Of a stretch of DNA of 64,000 nucleotides, positions 48,537 to 64,000 are shown one piece after another. A model generated the notes under the pieces. That model had not been told where the DNA came from. It did not search any database and saw only the letters and a program-made list of their open reading frames with translations. The stretch's first letter is position 1. Every line of letters starts with the position of its first letter. Both the position numbers and the translations under genes were made by a program. The stretch covers positions 1 to 64,000 of the forward strand of contig NZ_JAUYSS010000040.1 of the NCBI RefSeq assembly GCF_030695525.1, written 5' to 3'. The stretch comes from Daejeonella sp. GTDB lineage: Bacteria; Bacteroidota; Bacteroidia; Sphingobacteriales; Sphingobacteriaceae.

Positions 48537-48749
48537 CAAACAGAACTTGTAACAGTCCTTAAAGAAAGGAGAGAGGCCTTGGGCATAACGCAGGCGCATC
48601 TGGCTGAGCTTGCCGATGTAAGCCTGCGGACATTGAAATCCCTGGAGGTTGGAAAAGGCAACCCCACGTTGGAAACCTTAGCTAAACTGATCGAAGTTTT
48701 GGGCATGGAGCTCAAGTTGGAAATAAAAGCACCACAGCACGATAAATAA
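48531..48749 (+). CDS. hipB: HipB-like antitoxin/repressor (XRE helix-turn-helix)
   Basis: This 72-aa protein is mostly one HTH_3/XRE domain (residues 4-60: LKERREALGITQAHLAELADVSLRTLKSLEVGKGNPTLETL). HipB proteins bind palindromic operators as dimers and repress their own operon. Here three palindromes surround the promoter, the third spanning the start codon. The stop overlaps the next start by one base (TAATG). The C-terminal tail is short (APQHDK). Confidence 0.9.
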   Translation: MHQTELVTVLKERREALGITQAHLAELADVSLRTLKSLEVGKGNPTLETLAKLIEVLGMELKLEIKAPQHDK

Positions 48750-49078
48750 TGAGAAAAGCCAATGTTTACCGGAATGGAGAACTGGTCGGCAGTCTTACGG
48801 AAGAAACCGTGGGTCATTATATCTTTGAATATGATGATGAATGGTACCGCGACGACTCAAAGCCCGCTGTAAGCCTCACACTGCCAAAATCTCAGAAAAG
48901 GTATGAAAGCAAGTACCTGTTCCCTTTTTTCTATAATATGCTGAGCGAGGGCGTGAACAAAAAACTTCAGTGCACCCAGTTAAAAATTGATGAGAAAGAC
49001 AGCTTCGGCCTGCTGATGGCTACCAGCCAGCATGATACAATCGGCGCTATCACCGTCAAACCCGCTGACCTAGCATGA
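48749..49078 (+). CDS. hipS: HipS-like small protein (HipA N-terminal domain)
   Basis: This 109-aa protein matches the HipA N-terminal (couple_hipA) domain as a separate gene: RKANVYRNGELVGSLTEE, then FEYDDEWYRDDSKPAVSLTLP and YLFPFFYNMLSEG. In canonical HipA this domain is fused to the kinase. In the HipBST systems it is a separate protein, HipS, which acts as the antitoxin. It overlaps hipB by one base and the kinase gene by four (ATGA), indicating coupled translation. Confidence 0.85.
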   Translation: MRKANVYRNGELVGSLTEETVGHYIFEYDDEWYRDDSKPAVSLTLPKSQKRYESKYLFPFFYNMLSEGVNKKLQCTQLKIDEKDSFGLLMATSQHDTIGAITVKPADLA

Positions 49079-50073
49079 ACTTAAAAGAAATAAAATTTTG
49101 TCCGGGAACTCTTGCAGAAGGATTTGACACGTATAGTCCGCTCTGTCTAAAGAACATGTTCAATAAAAAGAAGGTGAGCCATATCTTGCCTTATGAGGCT
49201 GCGCGCAATGAGGAAGTAGAAGAACAGTTCATTGAAAACCGGAAGCGTATTTCTTTATCGGGTGTTCATGAAAAGCTGAGCATGGTTTTAGAGAAAAACC
49301 AGCTCCGTTTAACCCATCCGGGAGAACAGGGAACTTATATATTAAAGCCAATACCCCGGGATTTGAAAAAAGTTGATCAGGTACCTGCTAATGAACACCT
49401 CACCATGCAGATCGCCAGACAGGTTTACGGTATAAAAACAGCAGAGAACGCGCTGATCTTTTTTCAGGATGGTACTCCCGCTTACCTGACCAAACGCTTT
49501 GATGTGAAAGAGGACGGCACAAAATGGGGAAAAGAAGATTTTGCTTCGCTTGCTCGTCAGTCAACTGATAGTGCCGGACCCAATTTCAAGTATGATTATA
49601 ACTATGAGGCCTTGGGGCTGCTTTTCCAGAAATTCGTCCCAGCCTGGAGGATAGAAATAGAGAAATACTTCGTTATGGTACTATTTAACTATCTTTTTTC
49701 TAATGGTGATGCGCATCTCAAAAACTTCGCGCTACTTGAAAGTGCATCCGGCGACTATTTATTAAGTCCGGCATATGATCTGATCGATACCCGGCTGCAT
49801 GTAGATGATACTGATTTTGCGCTGACAGCGCTTTTTGCAGATAAATTCCAGTCCCGGGCCTGGAAGAACAAAGGTCATGCCTCGGCAGAAGATTTCAGAG
49901 AGTTAGGCAAACGGATCGGTGTGCAGTCCAAAAGGATAGATAAATTATTACCGCCTTTTCTTTCCAAACAAGAACAGGTAGAAAGCCTGATCTCACGCTC
50001 ATTCCTGAACGATCCGGCCAAACGAGCTTACCTGATGCATTATCAAACCAAAAGGAATTACCTGAACGGCTAG
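49075..50073 (+). CDS. hipT: HipT-like serine/threonine kinase toxin
   Basis: This 332-aa HipA C-terminal-type kinase lacks the N-terminal domain, which is encoded separately. Visible features are the serine loop RISLSGVHEK (S60, S62), an SxS arrangement as in HipT rather than the VAGAQEK of HipA, the ATP-contact lysine in YILKPIP (K91), the catalytic loop SNGDAHLKNF (D212, N217) and the metal-binding SPAYDLIDT (D235). Known HipT phosphorylates tryptophanyl-tRNA synthetase and HipA phosphorylates glutamyl-tRNA synthetase; the target here is unknown. Confidence 0.88.
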   Translation: MNLKEIKFCPGTLAEGFDTYSPLCLKNMFNKKKVSHILPYEAARNEEVEEQFIENRKRISLSGVHEKLSMVLEKNQLRLTHPGEQGTYILKPIPRDLKKVDQVPANEHLTMQIARQVYGIKTAENALIFFQDGTPAYLTKRFDVKEDGTKWGKEDFASLARQSTDSAGPNFKYDYNYEALGLLFQKFVPAWRIEIEKYFVMVLFNYLFSNGDAHLKNFALLESASGDYLLSPAYDLIDTRLHVDDTDFALTALFADKFQSRAWKNKGHASAEDFRELGKRIGVQSKRIDKLLPPFLSKQEQVESLISRSFLNDPAKRAYLMHYQTKRNYLNG

Positions 50074-51053: not shown

Positions 51054-51686
51054 TCAATTCACATGTCCCAGATTAATACCATTAAAAACAATATTAAACT
51101 CTGTTTTTCTGTTTAATTGTTGTACAGCTAAGGAGCAAGAAGGATCATCATTGCATGGGTTTCCCATATTTGGTCTGCCATATTTTTCTATCTGTAAACG
51201 ATCTGCCGAAATTCCTTGGGATATCAGATAATTAATGGCTGATTGAGCTCTGTTTGCGGCAAGTTTTTCATTGTATTTTGACATTCGGCTGTCAGAATAA
51301 GCTGTGGTTGCTACATTGATTCCAGGATTTTCTTTCATCAAAATCACAAGATTATTTAAAACAGGAAGGGCATCAGGACGAATAGAGGCATCGTCTAAAT
51401 CGAAATAGATATCGGCTATTGCAAAGGCTTTTTTCAATGAACTCAGATTGTCAAAAACAAACTGTTCAGATACCATATACATTGCTTTTCTGTACAGTAC
51501 AGCATCAACTTCATTTGCCGTTCTAGTTGAAATTGTATTCCCTGGCTCTAATAAACTGTCATGCGAAACTAAGGTAGAATTATTAACTGCCATGTAGTTT
51601 GCAGATCCGGAAACTTGTGCAAAAACATTATTTATTATAATACTGGTTGAGAGAGTTAATACTGCGATAAATAATTTAGTTTTCAT
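51054..51686 (-). CDS. OmpA-family protein with C-terminal peptidoglycan-binding domain
   Basis: This 210-aa secreted protein has a signal peptide (1-24, ending VFAQ). The C-terminal OmpA domain (about 90-205) includes IYFDLDDASIRPDALPVLNNL and SDSRMSKYNEKLAANRAQSAINYLISQGI, the pattern that binds diaminopimelate in peptidoglycan. The N-terminal part (25-85) is short and has no barrel, so it is a periplasmic or lipoprotein-like OmpA variant. A cysteine pair CNDDPSC lies near the C-terminus. It lies between tRNA-Pro and the eCIS region. Confidence 0.85.
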   Translation of the reverse strand: MKTKLFIAVLTLSTSIIINNVFAQVSGSANYMAVNNSTLVSHDSLLEPGNTISTRTANEVDAVLYRKAMYMVSEQFVFDNLSSLKKAFAIADIYFDLDDASIRPDALPVLNNLVILMKENPGINVATTAYSDSRMSKYNEKLAANRAQSAINYLISQGISADRLQIEKYGRPNMGNPCNDDPSCSLAVQQLNRKTEFNIVFNGINLGHVN

Positions 51687-51912: not shown

Positions 51913-53979
51913 TTATGGTTTTTCATCATGCTGAATTGCAGGAAAGATAAGCAGTCGCATGATTAATGAACCAAACACTATCCCCGCAAAAATGACCATC
52001 AATAATACCAGAAAAGGCATGCTGATACAATTTTCACCGGCCCCAAACCAGGGAAATCTATTGTCAATATAGAGCCACATAAAAATGGTAATAATAAAGA
52101 GATTGATGGAAACAATAAGGATTTTGATCAGAAGCTTTTTCCAGCGCCACTTTTCCCCCTTGTCCTTAATCTGATAGATCAGAATAATGATGATTATAAG
52201 TGAGAAGAGTCCGAGAATAATATTGACAATGGTTAACAGAAGTTCATCCGGATGATCATATTGTTCATCACAGGGAAATTGTAATGCATTGTAATATGCT
52301 ACTGAATTAGATTTAATATATCCCCAGATCGATTGATCATTAGCATGCCGCGGTTTAAGAGGAACCAATTCCTTTGAAATAGTGTCTATGCTAATAAATT
52401 TACTGGCTAAGACATCCCATAATTCACCATATCCTTCATCTGCACCTAAATCCCTGATCGCTACCCCTCCAAGTCCGTTTTGAATAATAAATTCGTATTT
52501 CTGTTCCAGAGAGCTTTCATTATCATAATAAATATGTCCGGTTAGGATTCCTTCATCGTCCCGGGTTTCTATTGAAGCATAGGCCTGATCTTTATTATAG
52601 CTTACCGGCGCATATTGATGGTTTAATCGGATTTCCTTGTACGGAATATAATTTTTAAACCTTTCTATTCCGGTTCGGGCATTACGCTCAAATACAGCAC
52701 CATAATAGCTTAGTCCTAAGATGAATTTATAAGGAGGAATTCCAATATTAAGATATCTGGAAACGCTCGACTGAATACTATAATCACTGTCATCGCTAAG
52801 AGGAGCAATCGGACCAGGAAAATTGGTCGGCTTATTACTGAAATCAATAATAAACCGGTCTGTCAGGGTATCCAGAGCAGGGATATCATAGGCATTACTC
52901 TCATCATATACCGGTAAGGTAATGATGACCTGATATTGTTTGGTTTTTAAACGGTAAGCTTTTGATAAATCACTGACAAAATCCACAAAATATGGACGAA
53001 GCGTTTTATTAAGTCCTGTAAATGCGATATTAATTCCTTCGGCATCGCGCTGCTCCAGAAGATCTAAGGTATTATTGATCAGGTTTTTTCTGGCTGTTTC
53101 GTTGGTTAGAAATTTTGCAGTTTCAAGTGAGTTTTTATTGCCTACTGTTAAAATGACCTTTGCACCGGCTTCTTTTACATTATTAATAATTGATGCATCC
53201 CTCCAGCGGTTAAAATTTTTGGATAAACCGGTAGCCGGGTCTATTTCATAATAATCATACAGCAATGAGCTAAGTGTACTTAAATTGTACTTTCCAGGGC
53301 TGTTCCTTATATCAAAAGGATAAATTCCTAATACTTCAGCTCTATGACCTAGTTTTAACCGGTATCTGATTACCGTACTGTCATTGATAGTATCGAGAAA
53401 TGCACTTTTGCTTGCATAAACATCACGCATTAATTTTAATTGTTCCTGCCTGTCTTTTTTCTTTTCCTGTTCTTCCTTATTATCAGTTAATATTGGGATC
53501 AGGCGGTCTACAAGATCATTGATGTATTTATCATTGGGATCAGGTTCCTTTATTAATTTGAAAGGTTTATTTCCGCTTGGGATTGATTCAGGCTGTTCTG
53601 AGACTGTGGGATTTTCAGGAATTTTGAGCTGTTTTATCAGATCCAATAAAGTTTGAAATTGTTCTTTATTAGCTTCAGCGAGTTCCAGTTTGAAATCTTC
53701 CAGGTGCTTTACTGTTACAAGTGAGGTATCTGTTTTTATTATTTTTTCAATAAGGACCATTACCCGCTGCTGCTCCTTAGTAATGGCATTTTTTTTGAAT
53801 TTCAGGGCATCCAGAAGTAATTTGAGCGGGTTTGATTTTGGTTTTTCGGCTTTGGCAGTATCCTGAAATGTGCTATATTCTTTATGAGAAAGACTGTTTC
53901 TATCGTTTTTCGCCCTTGAGTACGAGGAGGTTAACGATAAAGTTATAAGGAATATAAGGCAAACCAGGGATCTAAGCAT
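51913..53979 (-). CDS. Membrane-anchored GH18-like protein, probably catalytically inactive
   Basis: This 688-aa protein has a signal peptide (1-22), a charged helical linker (about 50-200) and a GH18 chitinase-like barrel (about 205-560). Supporting segments are AGAKVILTVGNKNS, YQVIITLPVYDES and YKFILGLSYYGAVFERN, plus the chitinase-insertion-like region. The barrel ends GLGGVAIRDLGADEGYGELW. Three transmembrane helices follow (about 585-680). The catalytic DGxDxDxE motif reads EGINIAFT (314-321): the acid/base Glu is Thr and the third Asp is Ala. It may bind glycan without cutting it. It is divergent from the eCIS operon, 181 bp away. Confidence 0.75.
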   Translation of the reverse strand: MLRSLVCLIFLITLSLTSSYSRAKNDRNSLSHKEYSTFQDTAKAEKPKSNPLKLLLDALKFKKNAITKEQQRVMVLIEKIIKTDTSLVTVKHLEDFKLELAEANKEQFQTLLDLIKQLKIPENPTVSEQPESIPSGNKPFKLIKEPDPNDKYINDLVDRLIPILTDNKEEQEKKKDRQEQLKLMRDVYASKSAFLDTINDSTVIRYRLKLGHRAEVLGIYPFDIRNSPGKYNLSTLSSLLYDYYEIDPATGLSKNFNRWRDASIINNVKEAGAKVILTVGNKNSLETAKFLTNETARKNLINNTLDLLEQRDAEGINIAFTGLNKTLRPYFVDFVSDLSKAYRLKTKQYQVIITLPVYDESNAYDIPALDTLTDRFIIDFSNKPTNFPGPIAPLSDDSDYSIQSSVSRYLNIGIPPYKFILGLSYYGAVFERNARTGIERFKNYIPYKEIRLNHQYAPVSYNKDQAYASIETRDDEGILTGHIYYDNESSLEQKYEFIIQNGLGGVAIRDLGADEGYGELWDVLASKFISIDTISKELVPLKPRHANDQSIWGYIKSNSVAYYNALQFPCDEQYDHPDELLLTIVNIILGLFSLIIIIILIYQIKDKGEKWRWKKLLIKILIVSINLFIITIFMWLYIDNRFPWFGAGENCISMPFLVLLMVIFAGIVFGSLIMRLLIFPAIQHDEKP

Positions 53980-54160: not shown

Positions 54161-54739
54161 ATGATTTACGAGGCATTGTCATGTCTGGTTGATGAAATTA
54201 ATGAACATTTCAGAATCAGGCTAAAAGTTTCAGAAGATAAGGTCAGCTTATCAGCCATTGTAAATCAGGATGGTACCATTGCCATCCAAGGCGAAAATAA
54301 AATCCTCCTGACCCTTATTAATATCGAAAAAGAAACTGTAGGAATGAATAATTCCGCATTTTCAGGTTCTTCGCTCGGTATTAATAAGTCACCTGTATTA
54401 ACCATTAACCTTTATGTACTTTTTTCGGCTTATTTCAGCAATGGAAATTATCCGGAATCATTAAGGTTTATCTCTTTTATTATCGCTTTTTTTCAACAGA
54501 AAAGCGCTTTTACCAGGGTCAATACTCCCCGTTTAGACCCGGAGATAGAGAAGTTAGTATTTGAAATGGCAAGCATAAGTCCCGAGCAATTAAACAATGT
54601 CTGGGGAAGTCTGGGAGCCAAATATATGCCGTCAGTAATTTATAAGGTGAGAATGCTGACTTACAATAATAACATTATAAGGGAGATCAGACCAGTAGTG
54701 TCGGGTGTGGAGAGCGATAACAATATTGCTAATTCATAA
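54161..54739 (+). CDS. eCIS cap/terminator protein (Pvc16-type, DUF4255)
   Basis: This 192-aa protein matches DUF4255 (Pvc16_N): MIYEALSCLVDEINEHFRIRL at the start, ILLTLINIEKETVGMNN, LTINLYVLFSAYF and a C-terminal KYMPSVIYKVRML. Pvc16/Afp16-type proteins cap the distal end of the contractile sheath and control tail length. The ATG at 54161 is chosen over a TTG 39 bases upstream. It is the first gene of the eCIS operon and is 2 bp from the next gene. Confidence 0.85.
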   Translation: MIYEALSCLVDEINEHFRIRLKVSEDKVSLSAIVNQDGTIAIQGENKILLTLINIEKETVGMNNSAFSGSSLGINKSPVLTINLYVLFSAYFSNGNYPESLRFISFIIAFFQQKSAFTRVNTPRLDPEIEKLVFEMASISPEQLNNVWGSLGAKYMPSVIYKVRMLTYNNNIIREIRPVVSGVESDNNIANS

Positions 54740-54741
54740 CA

Positions 54742-55578
54742 ATGAGATATGCCTACGAGGTATTGGTAAACGTTTCGTTTAACCATACTTATTTTTCAAG
54801 CAAGGTATTTGCGGGACTGGCTTTTACGCCATCTTCATCAACACAGCTATTATTTTTAAATAACGGCTTGCTGTTTAAACCTTATCCGGGTGGTTTTCGC
54901 ATTGTATTTGATACCAACTTCAATAACAGCAGCAGGAGCAGGGAAGATCTGATTTCTGATTTGCCGGATTGCAGATTCACAGCCACGCTGAGTGATACAA
55001 ATTTTTATAATTATACTTCAATTGAAGGTTCAGACATTGGCAAAAAAATATTTCATTTTTCCAATGCTGAAGCAAATGAATCATTGCTGAAAACCTCAAT
55101 ACATTCGGGTGATTTTGTTTCAGAAAGCGACCTTAAGGCGCTAACTGAAATTGATGAACCATTTTTTGTTAAGCCTTTCGCCATTCTTGATCTCAGGATT
55201 GCTCAGGGTCTTCCTGAGAGTTATTCCCTGAATTTTAAAGCCAAAGAAACAATCTGGAGATATGTTCTGATGAGTGAAGATTTGCAATCCCTCAATAATC
55301 CTGCAATAATTGATAATAACGGTACTGAACCATTTGATGGCCCCGAATTATTGAAATTCAGCGGGATAGAAGGTCTGGCTTTCAAATCTAAACAAGCCAT
55401 CAGTTTTTCAGAAAGAAGTAGTCAAAATTTTCAACTGGTTGAGAATTATGATGCCGAAACAGGAAGATATAAAGTGGTAATGCGTGCATTGCCAAAAGCA
55501 AACCCAGAAATGATCAGTTTGATTAAGAGCGACAATCCAATAGAAAACAACAATTATTCAGAAATATTTATTAACTAA
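54742..55578 (+). CDS. eCIS-associated protein of unknown function
   Basis: This 278-aa protein has no signal peptide or membrane segment. It begins MRYAYEVLVNVSFNHTYFSS and is predicted to be mainly beta-strand. Between the cap and sheath genes it sits where Bacteroidota eCIS operons often carry an uncharacterised gene. I recognise no motif. Position suggests a structural or assembly role, such as a cap adaptor. Translation is tightly coupled (2-bp gap before, 13 bp after). Confidence 0.7.
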   Translation: MRYAYEVLVNVSFNHTYFSSKVFAGLAFTPSSSTQLLFLNNGLLFKPYPGGFRIVFDTNFNNSSRSREDLISDLPDCRFTATLSDTNFYNYTSIEGSDIGKKIFHFSNAEANESLLKTSIHSGDFVSESDLKALTEIDEPFFVKPFAILDLRIAQGLPESYSLNFKAKETIWRYVLMSEDLQSLNNPAIIDNNGTEPFDGPELLKFSGIEGLAFKSKQAISFSERSSQNFQLVENYDAETGRYKVVMRALPKANPEMISLIKSDNPIENNNYSEIFIN

Positions 55579-55591
55579 ACTAAATTAAAAA

Positions 55592-57079
55592 ATGGCATCA
55601 ACATTAATGACACCAGGAGTCTACCTGGAAGAAAAGAACGCCTTCCCAAGTTCGGCAGTTGCTGTGGAAACAGCTGTGCCTGCTTTCATTGGCTACACAT
55701 CAATGGCAGAGCGGAACGGGAAATCGTTGGTAGGAAAACCTACCCGGATTACTTCATTTGCCGAGTACATCGAATGTTTCGGCGAAGGGTTCAAATCTAA
55801 GTTCACGATTGTGGATTCACAAATTGGGGATGATGAATCATTTATGCTCGAAAGGGCTCCTAAAAAGGTTGCATTTAAGGATGGAAACATCGCTTATATG
55901 TTCAACAGTATTCGTTTGTTTTATGCAAACGGTGGTGGCCCTTGCTATATCCTTTCTGTAGGTATTTACGGCGGAGCAGAATCCCTGGAGATTAAACCCG
56001 GTGATTTTGAAGTTCTGGACATTTTGGAAAAGGAATTTGAGCCAACCCTGGTCGTAATCCCTGATGCCATTGCTCTGGGTGCTGAATGCTATGGAATTTA
56101 CCAAAAGGTACTGGCACATTGTGCTAAAATGCAAAGCCGTTTTGCAATTTTTGATGTAGTGAAACAAGAGCCTACAGATGAAACAGCAGTTGTGATCAAT
56201 GATTTCCGTGAAGCTATTGGTATCAACTTCCTGAATTATGGTGCAGCTTATTACCCTTGGCTGAATACCTCTATCGTTCAGAACGATGAAATAGATTTTG
56301 AAAATGTTGATGGTGATCTTTCTGCCTTACTGCCTGAAGCCGATGCAAAAAACATCTATGCGAAATATAATGAAGATAGTGCTAAGTTAGAGGCAGGTTC
56401 AGCTGATTTGCTTACTGCCAAGAAACACCTGCATCAGGGTTTAAAAGCTGTTAGTCCTACCTATACTAACATTCTTACTGAAATTCGTACCAAGCTGAAT
56501 CAGCTTCCTCCAAGCGGAGCGATGGCAGGTATATATACCCAGGTTGATAACAGCAGGGGAGTATGGAAAGCACCGGCCAATGTTTCTGTGAGCATGGTTA
56601 ATGCGCCGGCAGTGAACATTTCAAGTGAAGGTCAGCAAAGTCTTAATGTAGATGTAATGGCCGGAAAATCAATTAACGTTATCCGTTCTTTCCCTGGAAT
56701 TGGTTGTCTTGTTTGGGGCGGTCGTACATTGGATGGAAACAGTCAGGATTGGAGATATATCAATGTGAGAAGGACTTTGATCATGATTGAGCAATCAATT
56801 AAATTAGCTGCCAGGGCTTATGTATTTGAGCCTAATGATTCAAATACCTGGGTAACTGTCAAAAGTATGATTGATAACTTCCTGATTAATCTCTGGAAAC
56901 AAGGAGCTCTTGCAGGTGCAGCACCTGAAGTAGCTTTTGATGTACAGATAGGTCTGGGATCTACAATGACACCAACTGATATACTTGATGGAAAAATGTT
57001 GATTACAGTAAAAGTTGCATTGGTTCGCCCTGCTGAATTTATCGTAATTACGTTCCAGCAACAAATGCAACAATCATAA
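55592..57079 (+). CDS. eCIS contractile sheath protein (Pvc2-like)
   Basis: This 495-aa protein has the tail-sheath N-terminal motif MTPGVYLEEKNAFPSSAVAVETAVPAFIGYT (about residues 6-36). The C-terminal phage_sheath_1C domain includes NVIRSFPGIGCLVWGGRTLDG, WRYINVRRTLIMIEQSIKLAARAYVFEPND and a terminal strand segment VKVALVRPAEFIVITFQQQM. It polymerises around the tube and contracts on firing. It is the only sheath gene seen; Pvc and Afp have three, but many Bacteroidota and AlgoCIS loci have fewer. Confidence 0.93.
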   Translation: MASTLMTPGVYLEEKNAFPSSAVAVETAVPAFIGYTSMAERNGKSLVGKPTRITSFAEYIECFGEGFKSKFTIVDSQIGDDESFMLERAPKKVAFKDGNIAYMFNSIRLFYANGGGPCYILSVGIYGGAESLEIKPGDFEVLDILEKEFEPTLVVIPDAIALGAECYGIYQKVLAHCAKMQSRFAIFDVVKQEPTDETAVVINDFREAIGINFLNYGAAYYPWLNTSIVQNDEIDFENVDGDLSALLPEADAKNIYAKYNEDSAKLEAGSADLLTAKKHLHQGLKAVSPTYTNILTEIRTKLNQLPPSGAMAGIYTQVDNSRGVWKAPANVSVSMVNAPAVNISSEGQQSLNVDVMAGKSINVIRSFPGIGCLVWGGRTLDGNSQDWRYINVRRTLIMIEQSIKLAARAYVFEPNDSNTWVTVKSMIDNFLINLWKQGALAGAAPEVAFDVQIGLGSTMTPTDILDGKMLITVKVALVRPAEFIVITFQQQMQQS

Positions 57080-57121
57080 TCAATTAATTAAACTTATTAT
57101 TTACATTTAAATATTACAATT

Positions 57122-57574
57122 ATGGCAGAAGATGGTTTAGCACAATCAACGGCAACCTGGCCGTTAGTTAAGTTCTCATTTCAAGTGAAATGGGACGATG
57201 CAGAGCTTATATTTCAGGAAGTAACCGGTTTATCTTCAGAAACTCAGGTTATTGAGTATCGCGGAGGAAACAGTAAAGTATATTCAACTGTTAAAATGCC
57301 CGGCATTAAGAAGTTTGGTAATATTACTCTCAAAAAGGGTATATTTAAGGGTGATAAAGCACTTTGGGATAAGTATAACCTGATCAAGATGAACACGATC
57401 AAGCGTTCAACTATTCTTATCAGTTTACTTGATGAAGGTAATGAGGTTGCAATGAGCTGGACATTATTAAACGCATTTCCATGTAAAATGACCGTTTCGG
57501 ATATGAAATCCGATGCGAATGAAATCGCGGTAGAGACAATGGAACTGGCTCACGAAGGCCTATCAATAAAATAA
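57122..57574 (+). CDS. eCIS inner tube protein 1 (gp19-like)
   Basis: This 150-aa protein matches the phage_T4_gp19/Pvc1-type tube: WPLVKFSFQVKWDDAELIFQEVTGLSSETQVIEYRGG at the N-terminus, MPGIKKFGNITLKKGIFKGDKALW and a C-terminal EIAVETMELAHEGLSIK. It stacks as hexamers to form the inner tube. A 42-bp gap separates it from the sheath gene, the largest early gap in the operon. The second, divergent tube paralogue follows after 9 bp. Confidence 0.92.
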   Translation: MAEDGLAQSTATWPLVKFSFQVKWDDAELIFQEVTGLSSETQVIEYRGGNSKVYSTVKMPGIKKFGNITLKKGIFKGDKALWDKYNLIKMNTIKRSTILISLLDEGNEVAMSWTLLNAFPCKMTVSDMKSDANEIAVETMELAHEGLSIK

Positions 57575-57583
57575 TAATAATTA

Positions 57584-58033
57584 ATGGGAACTACTGATCA
57601 ATATTACCCACCTGTCGGATTTAGTTTTAAAGTAAATGTTGAAGGGATAACGGGAGTAAATGAAGGTAGTTTTCAGGAAGTTAGCGGGCTAAGTGTAAAA
57701 ATAGCTCCAAAAAATGTGGAAGAGGGTGGGGAAAATCGGTTTGTGCACCGTTTCCCCACCCCTCCTAATTATGAGAACCTCATTCTCAAAAGAGGTATGC
57801 TCATTGGCTCCCCGCTCATAACATGGGCAAGAAATAGCTTCGAATTATTTACTTTTACGCCTAAAATTGTTAATCTTAACCTTCTCGATCAGACGGGTGC
57901 ACCAATTTCCACCTGGAGGTTCGTTAATGCATATCCTGTAGCAATGAAAATTTCAGATTTTAAAGCTCAGGAAAACACATTGGTTGTTGAAACCATGGAG
58001 TTATGTTTTGATTATTTTACAAAAGTAAATTAA
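57584..58033 (+). CDS. eCIS inner tube protein 2 (gp19-like, baseplate-proximal type)
   Basis: This 149-aa paralogue of tube 1 carries YYPPVGFSFKVNVEGITGVNEGSFQEVSGLSVKI, NRFVHRFPTPPNYENLILKRGML and TLVVETMELCFDYF. Its position after the main tube matches Pvc5/Afp5-type initiator tubes that contact the LysM/spike end. It differs strongly from tube 1 except in the core motifs, so the two are probably not interchangeable. Next comes the small DUF5908 gene after 1 bp. Confidence 0.9.
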   Translation: MGTTDQYYPPVGFSFKVNVEGITGVNEGSFQEVSGLSVKIAPKNVEEGGENRFVHRFPTPPNYENLILKRGMLIGSPLITWARNSFELFTFTPKIVNLNLLDQTGAPISTWRFVNAYPVAMKISDFKAQENTLVVETMELCFDYFTKVN

Positions 58034-58034
58034 G

Positions 58035-58202
58035 ATGCCTATAGAAATCAGAGAATTAGTAATTAAAGTATCAGTCGACCAGAATAACAAAAGGTCCAAT
58101 TCCGGAATTGATCCCAGGGAATTAGCGGCCCTTAAAAGCAAGATCGTAAAAGAGTGTATGGAAACCATTCGCCTTCGAATGAAAAATACATCCGAGCGCT
58201 GA
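58035..58202 (+). CDS. Small eCIS protein, DUF5908 family
   Basis: This 55-aa protein starts MPIEIRELVIKVSVD, the diagnostic N-terminus of DUF5908. The C-terminal half is a charged helix (ELAALKSKIVKECMETIRLRM). DUF5908 proteins occur in Bacteroidota eCIS and tailocin-like operons between tube and LysM genes. The function is unknown; they may be an assembly chaperone or a baseplate fitting. It is tightly packed: one base after the second tube stop, and its stop is one base before the LysM gene. Confidence 0.8.
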   Translation: MPIEIRELVIKVSVDQNNKRSNSGIDPRELAALKSKIVKECMETIRLRMKNTSER

Positions 58203-58203
58203 T

Positions 58204-58872
58204 ATGCAGAATCTGGTTAAATTAAAAATACTTGGATTTAAAGATCCTTCCTGTAAAGGAGTGGAGTCGGACTCTATTGTGGCATTCATAAACCCCTCTG
58301 CTTATGAACGCTCTTTAACGGTTGATTATACCCAGGATCAGACCATTGGTTCAAGTGCAAGCACCCAGAGCTTTAAAAGCATGGGACAGAGTGATTTGAA
58401 ATTAACATTTTTTGTGGATGGAACAGGTGTGGTCAAACTACCTGCCGGATTCAGAGATGTAGACCAATACATCAAAAAGTTTACCGACCTGGTCACCAAA
58501 TATCAGGGAGAAATACACCGCCCTTATTACTTGCTTATCCTATGGGGTACATTGAAATTCACGGGTGTATGTTCAAAGATTGATATTAAATACAGCCTAT
58601 TTAGTCCCGATGGAAAGGCATTAAGGGCAAGCATAGACATTACAATTACCCAGAGTAAAGATTATAAAACTAAAACTCAGGAAGGGGCTAATTCTTCACC
58701 TGATTTGACTCATTTAAGAACTGTCAATGCCGGGGATACACTTCCCCTGATGGCTTATCGCATTTATGGCGATAGTTCTTATTACGTCGAGGTTGCCAGA
58801 GCCAATGGTCTGAATAGTTTTCAGGATATTAAACCCGGTGATCAGATATATTTTCCACCAATAAAAAAATAA
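58204..58872 (+). CDS. eCIS tube/baseplate adaptor with LysM domain (Pvc7-like)
   Basis: This 222-aa protein has a tube-protein-like N-terminal domain (about 1-160: LVKLKILGFKDPSCKGV, FINPSAYERSLTVDYTQDQTIGSS, DLKLTFFVDGTGVV, YYLLILWGTLKFTGVC). The C-terminal LysM motif (about 168-222) is VNAGDTLPLMAYRIYGDSSYYVEVARANGLNSFQDIKPGDQIYFPP. In PVC/Afp the equivalent protein (Pvc7) links the tube to the spike and baseplate. The stop is followed directly by the spike gene. Confidence 0.9.
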   Translation: MQNLVKLKILGFKDPSCKGVESDSIVAFINPSAYERSLTVDYTQDQTIGSSASTQSFKSMGQSDLKLTFFVDGTGVVKLPAGFRDVDQYIKKFTDLVTKYQGEIHRPYYLLILWGTLKFTGVCSKIDIKYSLFSPDGKALRASIDITITQSKDYKTKTQEGANSSPDLTHLRTVNAGDTLPLMAYRIYGDSSYYVEVARANGLNSFQDIKPGDQIYFPPIKK

Positions 58873-58874
58873 CT

Positions 58875-60662
58875 ATGGCAATCCCTTCACCGGAAAAAAC
58901 AGCTGGTCAGACCCTTACCTGCAGCATTACTGTGAACGGTACTGCATTGAATGATACCTATCCGATAGTATCGATCAGTACAATTTATGAGATAAATAAG
59001 ATTCCATGCGCCGAAGTGGTACTGATTGACGGTGCGGTTGAAAAAGGAGATTTTGCAATTTCGGAAACATCCACCCTTATTCCAGGCAGTGAAATTTCGA
59101 TAAGTGCGGGCTACGATTCAGTGAATGAACTGATCTTTAAAGGGGTTATTGTCAGGCATGCGATCAAAATCAGCAGTGACAGCAGTAGTAACCTGATTAT
59201 TACCTGTAAACACAAGGCCGTGCAAATGACCTATAACCGGAATGATTCTATCTTTTCTAAAATGAAAGATTCAGATATTATCACTTCAATAATTAATACC
59301 TATAGTTTAACAGCAACTGTTGATGCATCAACAGTTGTGAATGATGTGATTTATCAGAAATCGGCTACCGACTGGGATTTTATTCTTTCCAGGGCAGAGT
59401 TTTGTGGTTTTATATTAAGTTATGATTTGGAGACGGTTAAAATAGGAAAACCTGTTTTGGATTCCACTCCTGTACTTTTATTGACTTTCGGTCAATCCAT
59501 TATTTCGCTTGATGCAGAACTGGATGCCGAAAAACAAGCCGAAAGTATTGAAGCCGTAGGCTGGAGTCTTACAAATCATACAACAACGGTTTCTGCTGCA
59601 TCAGAGCCAAGTATGAATGATCAAGGCAATATATCCGCCAAAAAATTATCGGGTGTTTTAAGCCAGAAAAAACTAACCTTAAATTCAGGTACACCCCTGG
59701 ATGCTGCTAACCTCAAGGTTTGGGCAGATTCAAAGCTTTTACGAATGCGTCTGTCTGCCCTGAAGGGTTCCACTACATTTCAGGGAAGTGCAAAAGCAGT
59801 ACCCGGAAAGATGATTCAGCTTGCAGGCCTTGGTGACCGTTTTAACGGAGATGCATTTATTTCTGCTGTTGAACATACCATTGATGATGGTTCATGGATT
59901 ACCAGGGTGGAGTTTGGTCTTGATTCTAAACCTGTCTCAGAACTTCCTCAATTTTCGTATGCACCTTCTTTAGGGCAGTTTCCGGCAATTCATGGAATTC
60001 AGATTGGAATGGTTAAGAAATTAGACCAGGATCCACAGAGCCAGTTTCGCATAATGGTTACTATTCCGGGATTGGCAGACACCGAGGCGCTTTGGGCAAG
60101 AATGGCTCATCTTTACGCTAGCAATACCTCAGGTTTTTATTTTCTTCCGGAAATCGGAGATGAGGTAATTCTTGGTTTTATTGATGGAGATCCATCTCAT
60201 CCGGTGATTCTGGGATCACTCTACAGCAGCAAAATTCCGGCAGCTTTTGCCATTGAGGCAAAGAATAATACCAAAGCCATTACCACCAGAACTAAGATGG
60301 AAATTAATTTTGATGAGGAGAAAAAGATCATTAAGATTTTTACTCCCGGCGGAAATAGTATTACATTAGATGATCAGGGTAAAGGAATTACGGTAAAAGA
60401 CCAGAATAATAATACACTAAAGTTGAACTCATCGGGTATTGAAATGGAGAGTCCTAAAAATATAGTAATTAAAGCTAGCGGTAATATTACGCTGGATGCC
60501 ACCGGAAAATTAGCCCTGAACTCAAAAGGGGATGTGGCCGTAGAAGGGTTAAATATAACTAATACTGCTCAGGTTGGCTTTACTGCCAAAGGTAATGCCT
60601 CTGCCGAGATATCTGCAGCAGGTCAGACAGTTGTAAAAGGTGCAATGGTTATGATAAATTAA
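58875..60662 (+). CDS. eCIS spike protein, VgrG-like (Pvc8-like)
   Basis: This 595-aa protein has a gp27-like N-terminal part (about 1-360: YPIVSISTIYEINKIPCAEVVLIDGAVEKGDF, FKGVIVRHAIKI). A gp5 OB-fold (about 370-460) is IGMVKKLDQDPQSQFRIMVTIPG and FYFLPEIGDEVILGFIDGDPSHPVILGSLYSS. The C-terminal beta-helical spike (about 475-595) has ITLDDQGKGITVKDQNNN and DATGKLALNSKGDVAVEG. It forms the puncturing trimer tipped by the PAAR protein encoded next. No extra C-terminal effector domain is visible. Confidence 0.93.
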   Translation: MAIPSPEKTAGQTLTCSITVNGTALNDTYPIVSISTIYEINKIPCAEVVLIDGAVEKGDFAISETSTLIPGSEISISAGYDSVNELIFKGVIVRHAIKISSDSSSNLIITCKHKAVQMTYNRNDSIFSKMKDSDIITSIINTYSLTATVDASTVVNDVIYQKSATDWDFILSRAEFCGFILSYDLETVKIGKPVLDSTPVLLLTFGQSIISLDAELDAEKQAESIEAVGWSLTNHTTTVSAASEPSMNDQGNISAKKLSGVLSQKKLTLNSGTPLDAANLKVWADSKLLRMRLSALKGSTTFQGSAKAVPGKMIQLAGLGDRFNGDAFISAVEHTIDDGSWITRVEFGLDSKPVSELPQFSYAPSLGQFPAIHGIQIGMVKKLDQDPQSQFRIMVTIPGLADTEALWARMAHLYASNTSGFYFLPEIGDEVILGFIDGDPSHPVILGSLYSSKIPAAFAIEAKNNTKAITTRTKMEINFDEEKKIIKIFTPGGNSITLDDQGKGITVKDQNNNTLKLNSSGIEMESPKNIVIKASGNITLDATGKLALNSKGDVAVEGLNITNTAQVGFTAKGNASAEISAAGQTVVKGAMVMIN

Positions 60663-60663
60663 T

Positions 60664-60963
60664 ATGCCTCCAGCAGCAAGATTAACAGATATGCATACCT
60701 GTCCGATGCTTACGCCCGGATTACCTCCAATTCCTCATGTTGGAGGACCTGTTATAGGGCCGGGTGTCCCGACAGTATTGATCGGTAAGATGCCGGCAGC
60801 CGTAATGGGAGATAATTGTGTTTGTGTTGGACCACCGGATGCTATAGTAAAAGGCTCTGCAACAGTAATGATCGGAAAAAAGCCTGCCGCCAGAATGGGT
60901 GATACCACCGCCCATGGGGGTACAATTGTTTTGGGTTGTCCAACAGTAATGATTGGGGGATAA
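60664..60963 (+). CDS. eCIS PAAR-domain spike tip (Pvc10-like)
   Basis: This 99-aa protein is almost entirely one PAAR domain: PPAARLTDMHTCPMLTPGLP, HVGGPV, GPGVPTVLIGKMPAAVMGD and RMGDTTAHGGTIVLGCPTVMIGG. The conserved histidines and a cysteine typically bind zinc at the tip. It sits on the VgrG-like spike (1-bp gap). No fused toxin is present, so cargo would be carried in the tube or encoded elsewhere. Confidence 0.93.
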   Translation: MPPAARLTDMHTCPMLTPGLPPIPHVGGPVIGPGVPTVLIGKMPAAVMGDNCVCVGPPDAIVKGSATVMIGKKPAARMGDTTAHGGTIVLGCPTVMIGG

Positions 60964-60965
60964 AT

Positions 60966-61385
60966 ATGGAAGATGTAAAATCATTTTTAGGAACAGGCTG
61001 GAGTTTTCCTCCTGTATTTAATAAAACGGATCATTCGGTTTCAATGGTTTCCGATATCACTGATATTGAAGAAAGTATCAGGATTATCTTAAGTACAACA
61101 CCCGGCGAAAGGACTATGCAACCTGAATTTGGTTGTGACCTCAAGCGGCTGGTATTCGAAAAGATTGATTCAACATTGATTGCCAGTCTGGACCACCTTA
61201 TTTATCATGCTCTGCTGAATTATGAACCTAGAATTACTTTCCTTAGTACTGAGGTTTTAGAACAGAATGACCAGAATGGGCTTTTGCATATTAACATTCA
61301 TTTCAAGGTAATTATCACTAATTCCAGGCATAATATTGTGTTCCCTTACTATTTAATTGAAGGAACAAATGTTTCATCTGTATAG
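60966..61385 (+). CDS. eCIS baseplate wedge protein gp25/GPW family (Pvc9-like)
   Basis: This 139-aa protein carries MEDVKSFLGTGWSFPPVF, IEESIRIILSTTPGERTMQPEFGCDLKRLVFE and HYAL-like LIYHALLNYEPRI, the pattern of gp25-like baseplate wedge proteins that start sheath assembly. The ATG at 60966 is 2 bp after the PAAR stop; an alternative in-frame start 30 bases upstream lies in the PAAR gene. It precedes the large baseplate protein. Confidence 0.92.
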   Translation: MEDVKSFLGTGWSFPPVFNKTDHSVSMVSDITDIEESIRIILSTTPGERTMQPEFGCDLKRLVFEKIDSTLIASLDHLIYHALLNYEPRITFLSTEVLEQNDQNGLLHINIHFKVIITNSRHNIVFPYYLIEGTNVSSV

Positions 61386-61399
61386 GCTCTGTATAACAA

Positions 61400-64000
61400 A
61401 TGGCTAATGATCAGTTACTTGATTTAATAGACGGAATGACTCAGGACGAAAGGCGTATTAAGGCGCTTGATCCGGGTTATGTAAAAATTGATGATCGTAA
61501 AATTTCTGATTTTTTAAAATTTATGTCTGATTTTGCCGGACAGGTTAATTTTTATAATGAAAAGGATAAGATTGACAGCGACTGGCAGGATTTTTTTACA
61601 TCAGATAAGAGTATTCTAATCCTCCTGATTACCAAATTTGATCTGACAAGCCATCTGATTCAATTTGAGAAACTCGAAGCACAAATCCATATTGCATCTG
61701 GTGACAAAGAAGCCCTGGAAGCTCTCAGAAATTTATTTGCATTTCTGCATAAGATTATAGAAGTGTTTAATTCAACCTGTAAAAGGCTCGAATATGGAAA
61801 CAATTTTGATAAAGTCAGCCTTGAGCTTGGCGGAATAATAAAAGGATTAAGTAAGGAAATATCTGAGATTATTGCATATAACAAACAGGCAGAAAGACAT
61901 TTTGGTGAACCATTTGCCTTTCTCCATCCTGAAGAGCTGATCGACCTGAGTATTTCTGTGCCGGAGATCTTTTCTGAAGCCGAAGATATAAAACTCAGAA
62001 TATTGCCTGCCTTGAGTTTTATCAAAGAAACTTTTACCAATCTCAGGTCAAAATACCATAATTTCCTTGCCGTAACTGCCTTTTATTATAAGGATTATGA
62101 CATTTTAAAAAATGAATACCCACCGCATATTTCATTATGCATTACTTTTCTTAAGTTATTTGAACATCTTATTAATCAGATTAATAAGCTCAGTTCAGAA
62201 CACCTTGATTTTTATTTTAAAAAAGTTCTGGAACTTCAGTTAAATACTGCCAGGCCAGATTCGGTTCATATAGTTTTTGATTCTTCATCACTCGACCGTG
62301 TTGTGCTTGAGAGAGGTGAACAATTACAGGCTGAAGTTGACTCAAATTTGCTCTTTTATGCCATAGATGAAGATATGGTGGTTACAAAGGCAAAAATCCC
62401 GGAAATAAGGACTTTAATTCTGGATGAGCATACCCAGGTAATTTCGCCAAATCCTGATGACCAGGATGTTAAAGAGATTGAGATTTATAAATCATCATAT
62501 AAAAATATCCCGGCTGACCGGTTTTTTGAACAGCAATCAGGGATCAAACCCTGGCCTGTACTTGGGGAAAGCCAGTTTGAATTATCTGATGATGACCGAA
62601 CGATGGAAGATACGGAAATTGGTATTTTACTCGCTTCACCGGTTCTTTACCAACCCGAGGGACATCGGTCTGTTTTATTGACTATCTACTTTGAACAGAC
62701 ATCTTTTACACAACTGATTCAATATTTTAAGAATTATGCCAATGTAACCGGGAAGCTGTTACAGACGGTTAGTTATGAACTTCTCTCTGATGCATTTGTA
62801 ATCAGTTTTACTTCTTCTACCGCCTGGGTAGAGGTAAAAAGGTATACCGTAAAAATCAATTTGCAAGAGCGCAACTTTGAGATAAAGTTTGAGCTTTCAC
62901 CTGTAGATAAAGGAATTGATATTTATAGAGCAGAAATTCATGGTGAAAACTATGAGGCTGAATGGCCGATAGTAAAACTGATTCTTAATAATTATTCGAC
63001 TCATAATCCTTTCTCATTTTTCAGAAAACTATTGATTCACCGTGTTACAATTACCGCAAACGTAAGTGGTAGCAGAGCTGTAAAACTTCAAAATAATATC
63101 GGTAATCTAAGTGCAGATAATCCCTTTCATCCATTTGGTCCTCAGCCTGTTATAGGCTCTTATCTTGACATTAAGAATACCAATATTTTTAACAGGTATA
63201 CCAGGGACTTTTGTATTAAAATGGAGTGGATAGACCTGCCAAGGGTTTCAGGTGGGTGGGCTACTTATTTAAAAGAATACCACGCAAATATTACTAATGA
63301 TTCATTCAAGGTCAAACTGAGTGGATTATCCCAGGGTAAATTCAAACCTCCTTTATCAAAAAGGCAGGAATTTAATTTGTTTACCATGGATAGGGGGGAT
63401 TTCGGTTCAGAAATATTATCTGAGGTTTCACAAATAAGGGATGTAGATTTAAAAAGGCTTGAATTACCCAATCGCCCGCTACTAAATAAAGAGGGTCTGG
63501 TTCCGGACGCCAATTTTACTGAAGGTGCTGTCAGACTTGAGTTTTCTGCTCCGGAAGAAGCATTTGGCTCAAAGCTCTATCCTCAGATCTTTCCGGAGAC
63601 TGTATTGCATAACTCAAAACGCTTTTCTAAAAAGCGTCCATTGCCAAATCCGCCTAATATTCCTGTTGTAAGATCAATAACTGTTGATTATACCCTGGAA
63701 CATTCAGAGGTGCTCATAAAAACAGCAAAAAATGAAGACTCAGGTATAAAGATTATCCATCAATACCCATTTGGTTATGAAAATGTCTATCCCGAAAGTG
63801 ATAAACAACCCTATAATTTTATTCCTGATTTTGAATTTGAAAATAATCTGTACATCGGAATAGAAGATCTTTATCCAAAACAGGAACTAAGTCTCTTGTT
63901 CCAGCTTCAGGAAACGAATTTTTCTGATCATGCCAGCGAACCAGAACCAATTGTCTGGAGTTATTTATACGACAACTCATGGATAATTCTGAATAAGGGG
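61400..64000 (+). CDS. eCIS large baseplate protein (Pvc11/gp6-like), partial at window edge
   Basis: An uninterrupted frame runs from the ATG at 61400 to the last base, more than 860 codons with no stop. It begins MANDQLLDLIDGMTQDERRI and includes YVKIDDRKISDFLKFMSDFAGQVNFYNEKD, then DSSSLDRVVLERGEQLQAEV and DEHTQ. The beginning and the motif with a tough-fibre-like beta region are typical of the big baseplate wedge component (Pvc11/Afp11-type, baseplate J-like) that follows gp25. The stop and the downstream genes lie beyond the window. Homology is by position and general pattern rather than by a motif I can prove. Confidence 0.8.
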   Translation, partial: MANDQLLDLIDGMTQDERRIKALDPGYVKIDDRKISDFLKFMSDFAGQVNFYNEKDKIDSDWQDFFTSDKSILILLITKFDLTSHLIQFEKLEAQIHIASGDKEALEALRNLFAFLHKIIEVFNSTCKRLEYGNNFDKVSLELGGIIKGLSKEISEIIAYNKQAERHFGEPFAFLHPEELIDLSISVPEIFSEAEDIKLRILPALSFIKETFTNLRSKYHNFLAVTAFYYKDYDILKNEYPPHISLCITFLKLFEHLINQINKLSSEHLDFYFKKVLELQLNTARPDSVHIVFDSSSLDRVVLERGEQLQAEVDSNLLFYAIDEDMVVTKAKIPEIRTLILDEHTQVISPNPDDQDVKEIEIYKSSYKNIPADRFFEQQSGIKPWPVLGESQFELSDDDRTMEDTEIGILLASPVLYQPEGHRSVLLTIYFEQTSFTQLIQYFKNYANVTGKLLQTVSYELLSDAFVISFTSSTAWVEVKRYTVKINLQERNFEIKFELSPVDKGIDIYRAEIHGENYEAEWPIVKLILNNYSTHNPFSFFRKLLIHRVTITANVSGSRAVKLQNNIGNLSADNPFHPFGPQPVIGSYLDIKNTNIFNRYTRDFCIKMEWIDLPRVSGGWATYLKEYHANITNDSFKVKLSGLSQGKFKPPLSKRQEFNLFTMDRGDFGSEILSEVSQIRDVDLKRLELPNRPLLNKEGLVPDANFTEGAVRLEFSAPEEAFGSKLYPQIFPETVLHNSKRFSKKRPLPNPPNIPVVRSITVDYTLEHSEVLIKTAKNEDSGIKIIHQYPFGYENVYPESDKQPYNFIPDFEFENNLYIGIEDLYPKQELSLLFQLQETNFSDHASEPEPIVWSYLYDNSWIILNKG

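Follow-up and report, generated by a model that had tools for sequence, protein, structure and literature searches.

A module-built tape measure and a linked GH18-like membrane protein in a contractile injection system of the AlgoCIS/tCIS kind from a Sphingobacteriaceae-type bacterium

The window analyzed here is a stretch of 64,000 bases from Daejeonella sp. (bases 1-64000 of contig NZ_JAUYSS010000040.1, which is contig C26 of our genome G000), and toward its right end it carries the genes of a contractile injection system (CIS). The full contig has 79,713 bp, and positions above 64000 are contig positions in the numbering of the window. In the window part of the operon (54161-64000) the CIS genes are collinear and on a single strand, with intergenic gaps of about 1-42 bp, and the locus extends both ways: on the left lies a gene for a protein with a glycoside hydrolase family 18 (GH18)-like domain, and on the right the operon continues to 74565 and is followed by cargo-like genes up to the contig end at 79713 (Table 1). 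Judged by its genes, the locus appears to be a complete single-sheath CIS of the AlgoCIS/tCIS kind. Two of its features, a tape measure built of modules and the GH18-like membrane protein, had not been covered by an earlier sequence-only reading of the window.

The sheath, tube, spike, PAAR and gp25 proteins and two large baseplate proteins are encoded in one operon, together with an AAA ATPase of the Pvc15 type and a DUF4255 cap. Besides the cap there is a cap adaptor, recognized by a weak sequence match, and there is a single sheath protein, the one sheath match in the whole genome. Its match to the Pfam family Phage_sheath_1 (3.4e-5) falls under the cut-off, and the large Alg11-type protein has zero Pfam matches. 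The CIS_TMP gene directly precedes the ATPase gene, and both order and family fit a tape measure of the Afp14/Cis14 type. Four proteins of the DUF4157/eCIS_core family are present, two near the operon at the contig end and two at distant places in the genome. Comparison of the unknown genes with PHROGs, NCBIfam and PADLOC brought no useful result, and weak DndD and mad2 matches were dismissed as chance or generic methyltransferase signal.

The apparatus genes that the sequence-only reading placed at 54161-64000 are thus there, with Pfam and PDB matches far beyond chance. It spoke of ten consecutive genes where its own list holds eleven, and its "unknown protein" (gene 2) is cap-adaptor-like by the weak SalCis16b match, position and size. 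Following the contig rightward to 79,713 bp gives a complete operon, and everything expected downstream is found there: the ATPase (AAA), the tape measure (CIS_TMP), a Pvc12 counterpart (Alg12-like), a fibre (Cis13-type) and cargo (two eCIS_core proteins). The likeness to AlgoCIS holds as well, with cap and cap adaptor first and one sheath.

Table 1. Genes of the CIS locus and its neighbours (aa, amino acids; values are E-values)
Feature	Position	Strand	Evidence
GH18-like membrane protein, 688 aa, divergent from operon	51913..53979	-	Pfam Glyco_hydro_18 1.3e-26; catalytic motif; hydropathy; conservation beside CIS genes
cap, Pvc16_N/DUF4255, Alg16A type	54161..54739	+	Pfam 1e-31; ATG at 54161
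candidate cap adaptor, Alg16B type, 278 aa	54742..55578	+	PDB SalCis16b 0.0015 (weak); position and size as in AlgoCIS
single sheath protein	55592..57079	+	Phage_sheath_1C 5.6e-16; PDB 9r9h_T 2.5e-139; AlgoCIS sheath chain 7adz_2A 8.3e-110
inner tube, gp19	57122..57574	+	Pfam 3.4e-40
second gp19 protein, probably tube initiator (Alg5 type, by analogy)	57584..58033	+	Pfam 1.5e-33; gene order
DUF5908, probably spike plug (Alg6/Cis6 type, by analogy)	58035..58202	+	Pfam 3.8e-16; gene order and size
CIS_tube with C-terminal LysM-like region, Alg7 type	58204..58872	+	Pfam CIS_tube 5.3e-48; LysM match under cut-off
VgrG-like spike, Alg8 type	58875..60662	+	Phage_base_V 2.8e-21
PAAR tip	60664..60963	+	Pfam 8.7e-25
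gp25 wedge, Alg9 type	60966..61385	+	Pfam 3.9e-21; ATG at 60966, longer open frame from TTG at 60936
large baseplate protein, Alg11 type, 1265 aa	61400..65197 (window part to 64000)	+	PDB AlgoCIS chain 7aeb_G 7.5e-93
fibre, 257 aa	65202-65975	+	Cis13-type profile match
Alg12-type baseplate protein	65993-68857	+	PDB matches
tape measure, 1248 aa	68871-72617	+	Pfam CIS_TMP 2.1e-134
AAA ATPase (Pvc15 type)	72608-73960	+	Pfam AAA 3.1e-29
S-adenosylmethionine (SAM) methyltransferase, last operon gene	73963-74565	+	
255-aa protein	74580-75347	-	
eCIS_core (DUF4157) protein, 556 aa	75359-77029	-	Pfam eCIS_core
chaperone-like protein, 171 aa	77035-77550	-	type III secretion-type/YbjN chaperones, weak (0.0026, under cut-off)
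eCIS_core (DUF4157) protein, at least 710 aa, interrupted by contig end	77581-79713	-	Pfam eCIS_core
OmpA-domain gene	51054-51686	-	adjoins the GH18-like gene; same pairing in G007
HipA N-terminal (Couple_hipA) and HipA_C genes, adjoining	48749-50073	+	

The tape measure contains three clear tandem modules of about 208 residues, each lying around a PWW motif (residues 130, 336 and 546), and the modules are homologous to one another by HHalign (probabilities of 99.9 for the first and second, 96.5 for the first and third, and 95.8 for the second and third). We applied a profile of the module to 81 complete tape measures, a set that includes near-identical ones, and observe exactly one module in all 21 that have 700 residues or fewer, while at least two are found in 51 and at least three in 46 of the 60 longer ones. 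Tape-measure length correlates with module number (r 0.88, 217 residues per module), and strong adjacent modules are spaced at a median of 208 residues (67 pairs). As an example of how far close systems can diverge, two sister Chitinophagaceae systems have tape measures of 812 (L161) and 1250 (L128) residues. Three Moorena systems (L187, L189, L201) have three modules in 999-1003 residues and two other cyanobacteria (L182, L197) have one, in 507 and 555 residues; the gain in Moorena is a separate expansion. Searches of the literature on tape-measure length and repeats in CIS, with few subscription papers within reach, turned up nothing about a module-built ruler of an extracellular CIS (eCIS).

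How are the long tape measures ("long rulers") related to one another? A tree was built from the Alg11- and Alg12-like proteins of 83 systems, and when three short-ruler systems serve as its root, the long rulers of Bacteroidota form one clade with support 0.958; a midpoint-rooted tree of 75 systems does not recover this clade as such. Within the clade, the tape measures in the tree span 780-1964 residues, and one open-ended frame runs to 2942 residues (L170). Of the named CIS records, those closest to the window come from Sphingobacteriaceae-type metagenome-assembled genomes labelled Sphingobacterium thalpophilum and Pedobacter schmidteae. In the genus, CIS_TMP is found in nine of 20 genomes, six with the long form (that of G002 interrupted by a contig end) and three with open frames of 485-490 residues. 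The short-ruler members of the genus have another arrangement, in which the tape measure is separated from the Alg12-like gene by a crown-type gene of 930-1210 residues. Mutual exclusion of long ruler and crown gene does not hold, as L190 is of the crown type with an 852-residue ruler; there is only a tendency. In a second long-ruler subclade (L244-L259, G052, G077, G121) two to three additional genes (about 634-833, 270-296 and 300-323 residues) separate the tape measure from the ATPase, and the two large baseplate genes mostly have no fibre gene between them.

The GH18-like protein has an N-terminal hydrophobic segment, a GH18 domain and three C-terminal hydrophobic segments. Active GH18 enzymes have a DGxDxDxE (DxxDxDxE) motif, in which the Glu is catalytic; at this place the window protein reads EGINIAFT, with the catalytic Glu absent. 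Scoring segments with a simple hydropathy threshold and the Glu by profile alignment, with no dedicated predictor, we find at least two C-terminal hydrophobic segments in all 47 CIS-type GH18-like proteins (exactly three in 42) and none in the eight GH18 proteins that do not lie beside CIS genes. The catalytic Glu is kept in 18 and lost in 29 of the 47, and it is kept in all eight unlinked proteins. Because catalysis is lost in most members, binding is favoured over cutting. A profile of the family has the spore-cortex glycosylase YdhD as its best solved match (1.8e-33), followed by chitinases and then by YaaH and a cortical-lytic enzyme, which makes peptidoglycan a likely ligand, and positive charges in the loop that follows the first C-terminal segment suggest a periplasmic position of the GH18 domain. 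We found no description of this protein in the literature on CIS with GH18, chitinase or glycosyl hydrolase (again with few subscription papers within reach); one of these searches, which brought up chitinase papers alone, carries little weight.

To see how closely this gene is tied to CIS loci, whole genomes were searched for 50 of 80 loci, 41 of the long-ruler clade and nine controls outside it (eight with rulers of 480-625 residues, one with 852); the 30 loci left out were mainly truncated, near-duplicate or distant. Of the 41 long-ruler genomes, 36 have a GH18-like gene as the immediate neighbour of a CIS gene, and of the nine controls none has, a difference with a Fisher value of 8e-7 if common descent is ignored. 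The control genomes have no GH18-like gene on the CIS contig. Among the 41, it is beside the cap gene in 33 (25 divergent, eight on the same strand) and directly after the tape measure in three; in two genomes it shares the contig with the CIS at a distance of about 3 and 7 kb, in two it is located elsewhere, and one (L158) has none. In L128, L136 and L144 the cap-adjacent gene is on another contig than the baseplate genes (a split operon or a second system), and the match in L164 is weak. Within the genus, every one of the six long-ruler genomes has the GH18-like gene (orthologues at 63-82% identity) and the 14 others lack it, G018 among these having only a weak GH18 match. The gene is also CIS-linked in G418, G234 and G230. 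We had considered a genus-level accident and dropped it, since the linkage recurs outside the genus.

We consider it likely that the locus is a CIS of the AlgoCIS/tCIS kind from a clade with a modular ruler and a dedicated GH18-like membrane partner, and the roles of these two parts are what we infer. The particle would assemble in the cytoplasm on its baseplate, the AAA ATPase would load the eCIS_core proteins into the tube, the modular tape measure would set tube length, with module number helping to fix it, the cap and cap adaptor would terminate the tube, and the particle would fire through sheath contraction. These assembly steps are modelled on known homologues; in particular, CIS_TMP as the length measurer is taken by analogy from Afp14, which is reported to regulate the length of Afp (Rybakova 2015, as cited in PMC10066040 and PMC12237407). 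The GH18-like protein may be held in the cytoplasmic (inner) membrane, its sugar-binding fold reaching into the periplasm, and would be a helper of the particle during docking, firing or release and not an effector that is injected. If module number helps to set length, the window particle should be clearly longer than a particle with a one-module ruler.

Several other explanations have to be weighed. A contractile machine has tail-type folds in common with phages and with type VI secretion systems (T6SS), and the sequence-only reading had itself named capsid, portal and terminase genes downstream, or the membrane complex TssJLM, as what would speak against it. None of the capsid, portal, terminase or lysis Pfam families is found in the 25 proteins scanned around the operon, and no capsid, portal or terminase gene is among the genes read from 51.9 kb to the contig end. 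A search of the genome for TssM/IcmF (PF06761) found nothing, and the E. coli control gave a match; for TssJLM the outcome covers TssM, as TssJ and TssL were not part of the search. With eCIS_core proteins and an AAA ATPase at the locus, we reject both the prophage and the T6SS reading on gene content, a remnant of either being extremely improbable, and the machine is a new member of the AlgoCIS/tCIS kind. Is the large CIS_TMP protein a ruler at all? It could instead be a scaffold or a cargo-handling part, with length set otherwise, and we take this to be a real possibility, short of an even chance. Its link to Afp14 consists of the name, the position before the ATPase and the size class, and CIS that lack a tape-measure gene still hold to a fixed length (PMC12237407). 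In a model of a relative's tape measure (residues 1-760, 63% identical to the window's there) everything is helix, the modules having a predicted local distance difference test score (pLDDT) of about 75-90 and the linkers weak values (mean 72.3, predicted template modelling score 0.33). Modules predicted as folded helical domains are not the coiled-coil rod described for one tape measure (PMC11329794), so their action as a ruler is not obvious. A PDB search with the C-terminal profile gave no match, and one with the N-terminal profile gave only chance level (best 0.0036). What argues for a ruler is the role of Afp14 and the wide variation of module number between close systems.

For the GH18-like protein, the system could be an ordinary extracellular CIS in which this protein cuts peptidoglycan as a lysis factor and frees the particles; AlgoCIS particles do occur in the supernatant. 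The high profile matches to peptidoglycan-type enzymes, the catalytic Glu of a minority of the homologues and the membrane segments, as a lytic protein might have, would all suit such a release factor. Most homologues, the window protein included, have no catalytic Glu by alignment, while every unlinked protein keeps it, and chitinases, which rank second among the solved matches, leave the choice of substrate undecided; we find this account rather unlikely. That the gene is a co-inherited neighbour without any CIS role is less likely still, indeed improbable. Related genomes do keep synteny by descent, one long-ruler subclade is without the gene in the stretches read, and catalysis has decayed in many members. 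Against mere co-inheritance, the gene accompanies the locus in three different layouts (ahead of the cap and divergent, ahead of the cap and co-directional, or following the tape measure), it does so in hosts recorded as Sphingobacteriales, Chitinophagales, Flavobacteriales, Cytophagales and Bacteroidales, and its membrane architecture persists.

The explanation by a modular ruler and a membrane partner has its own weak points, and all of the following weigh against it. A fourth module in the window's tape measure is unsupported (HHalign probability 0.8-13.4), a single module is detected in nine of the 60 long tape measures, the predicted folded domains count here too, and a Streptomyces CIS attains 268 nm without a tape-measure gene (PMC12237407). 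The 41 loci are those closest to the window's baseplate, and are thus biased to its subclade and not independent. In a sample of the phylum the GH18-like gene is linked in four of nine genomes with a ruler of more than 1000 residues. Nine long-ruler systems that group together (G052, G077, G121, G130, G313, G345, G425, G452, G456; support 0.981 without G130 and 0.696 with it) have no GH18-like gene in the stretches read, the two GH18 genes of G130 both being on other contigs. Finally, G208, G297 and G317, which have rulers of 825-907 residues and are absent from the tree, have no GH18-like match at 1e-10.

The conserved membrane partner leaves room for a membrane-associated mode, and sequence alone does not make the particle "extracellular". 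We can go further, and tentatively suggest that the clade is not (or not only) extracellular: a GH18-fold receptor, in many cases without catalysis, would hold the particle at the cytoplasmic membrane of the cell that makes it and read periplasmic peptidoglycan, a signal would pass through the three membrane helices to the short, unusually conserved fibre and lead to firing or release, and length would be set by the number of 208-residue beads. We hold this picture to be doubtful. If it were true, particles of the clade would come in stepwise lengths, and the window particle would be about twice or more as long as AlgoCIS and tCIS, both described with 22 tube rings, provided that those have one-module rulers; this length estimate is conditional on the module number of the AlgoCIS/tCIS rulers. 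How free CIS particles are recruited to membranes, released or fired is an open question, and the 2025 work on CisA covers Streptomyces only. Here the membrane part is preserved and catalysis is lost in a protein that accompanies a large CIS clade of Bacteroidota, and as a conserved membrane protein beside the ruler family it may hint at docking to the membrane of the cell itself, a question testable by deletion. The clade includes cultured hosts (Chitinophaga, Mucilaginibacter, Pedobacter and Flavobacterium), and the repeat number that varies between relatives is a natural series for the length-ruler idea. Two genomes, G313 (C25, C32) and G425 (C54), each hold one CIS with a short ruler and one with a long ruler, so that particle lengths could be compared within a naturally matched pair.

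Among the other genes, the fibre is kept along its length in 43 homologues (28-88% identity to the window protein), in contrast to typical receptor-binding fibres, which evolve rapidly (PMC12923769). The profile of this family matches the N-terminus of Cis13/All3316 at 1.4e-5 and the Bdellovibrio trimer protein bd2133 at 1.2e-8, with weaker matches to 9qgo_A (0.39) and AfpX13 (0.98). A model of the closest named homologue (88% identical) has a mean pLDDT of 84.7 and a beta-rich C-terminal half.

Both eCIS_core proteins at the contig end (Pfam E-values 1.4e-9 and 8e-11) contain HEAWH, an instance of the HExxH pattern described for DUF4157 (PMC8213781). The contig ends inside a 48-base tandem repeat (79454-79713), which codes for LQGKFDT-type repeats within the second eCIS_core gene, and this hides both the break in the assembly and the start of that gene. 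The two orphan eCIS_core genes far from the operon (C27:48357-48554, in a 1315-residue frame, and C50:75877-76074, in a 496-residue frame) possibly encode extra cargo. The 171-residue chaperone-like gene sits between the two contig-end eCIS_core genes, and its homologue in G003 adjoins the eCIS_core gene of that genome; it is possibly a cargo chaperone. That each orphan eCIS_core gene has such a neighbour is unsupported, with none beside the C27 and C50 genes. Orthologues of the methyltransferase (77-85% identity) occur in the genus only in the long-ruler genomes G002, G003, G007, G008 and G011, and homologues are also in the Mucilaginibacter CIS loci L127, L131, L138 and L149.

Of the known systems, AlgoCIS of Algoriphagus machipongonensis (PMC8894135) has in common with the window the cap, the cap adaptor (Alg16B, 284 residues there), one sheath, the plug, the LysM adaptor, the long Alg11, Alg12 and DUF4157 cargo, with strong matches to the sheath and the Alg11 chain (Table 1) and to Alg12 (3.5e-72). 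They differ in the fibre, which is Alg19 in AlgoCIS and a short Cis13-type protein here; the main text of that paper has no "tape measure", and the parts of it covered do not mention GH18. The thylakoid-anchored tCIS of Anabaena (PMC8894136) has a two-protein cap in common with the window, and matches are found to Cis12 (All3315, 1e-82) and the sheath (All3325, 2.5e-100) besides the fibre N-terminus. It is described as having a crown (Cis19) and a particle anchored by a transmembrane helix of Cis13, whereas at the locus studied here the Alg12-like gene is followed by the tape measure with no crown gene in between, its fibre ends in a predicted beta domain, and its membrane protein is a separate gene. 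SalCIS (named from the PDB records 9r9h, 9r9n and 9rce) provides the closest solved sheath, the weak match to the cap protein and a baseplate match of 1.1e-78. The likeness to the Streptomyces CIS with CisA (PMC12237407) is a functional analogy, in that a dedicated membrane protein encoded with the CIS is needed there for firing. CisA is described as having a single membrane segment, an N-terminus that is disordered and cytoplasmic, and a periplasmic-binding-like domain, and it has no GH18 domain; by its architecture and linkage, the GH18-like protein of the window may be a membrane adaptor of the CisA type.

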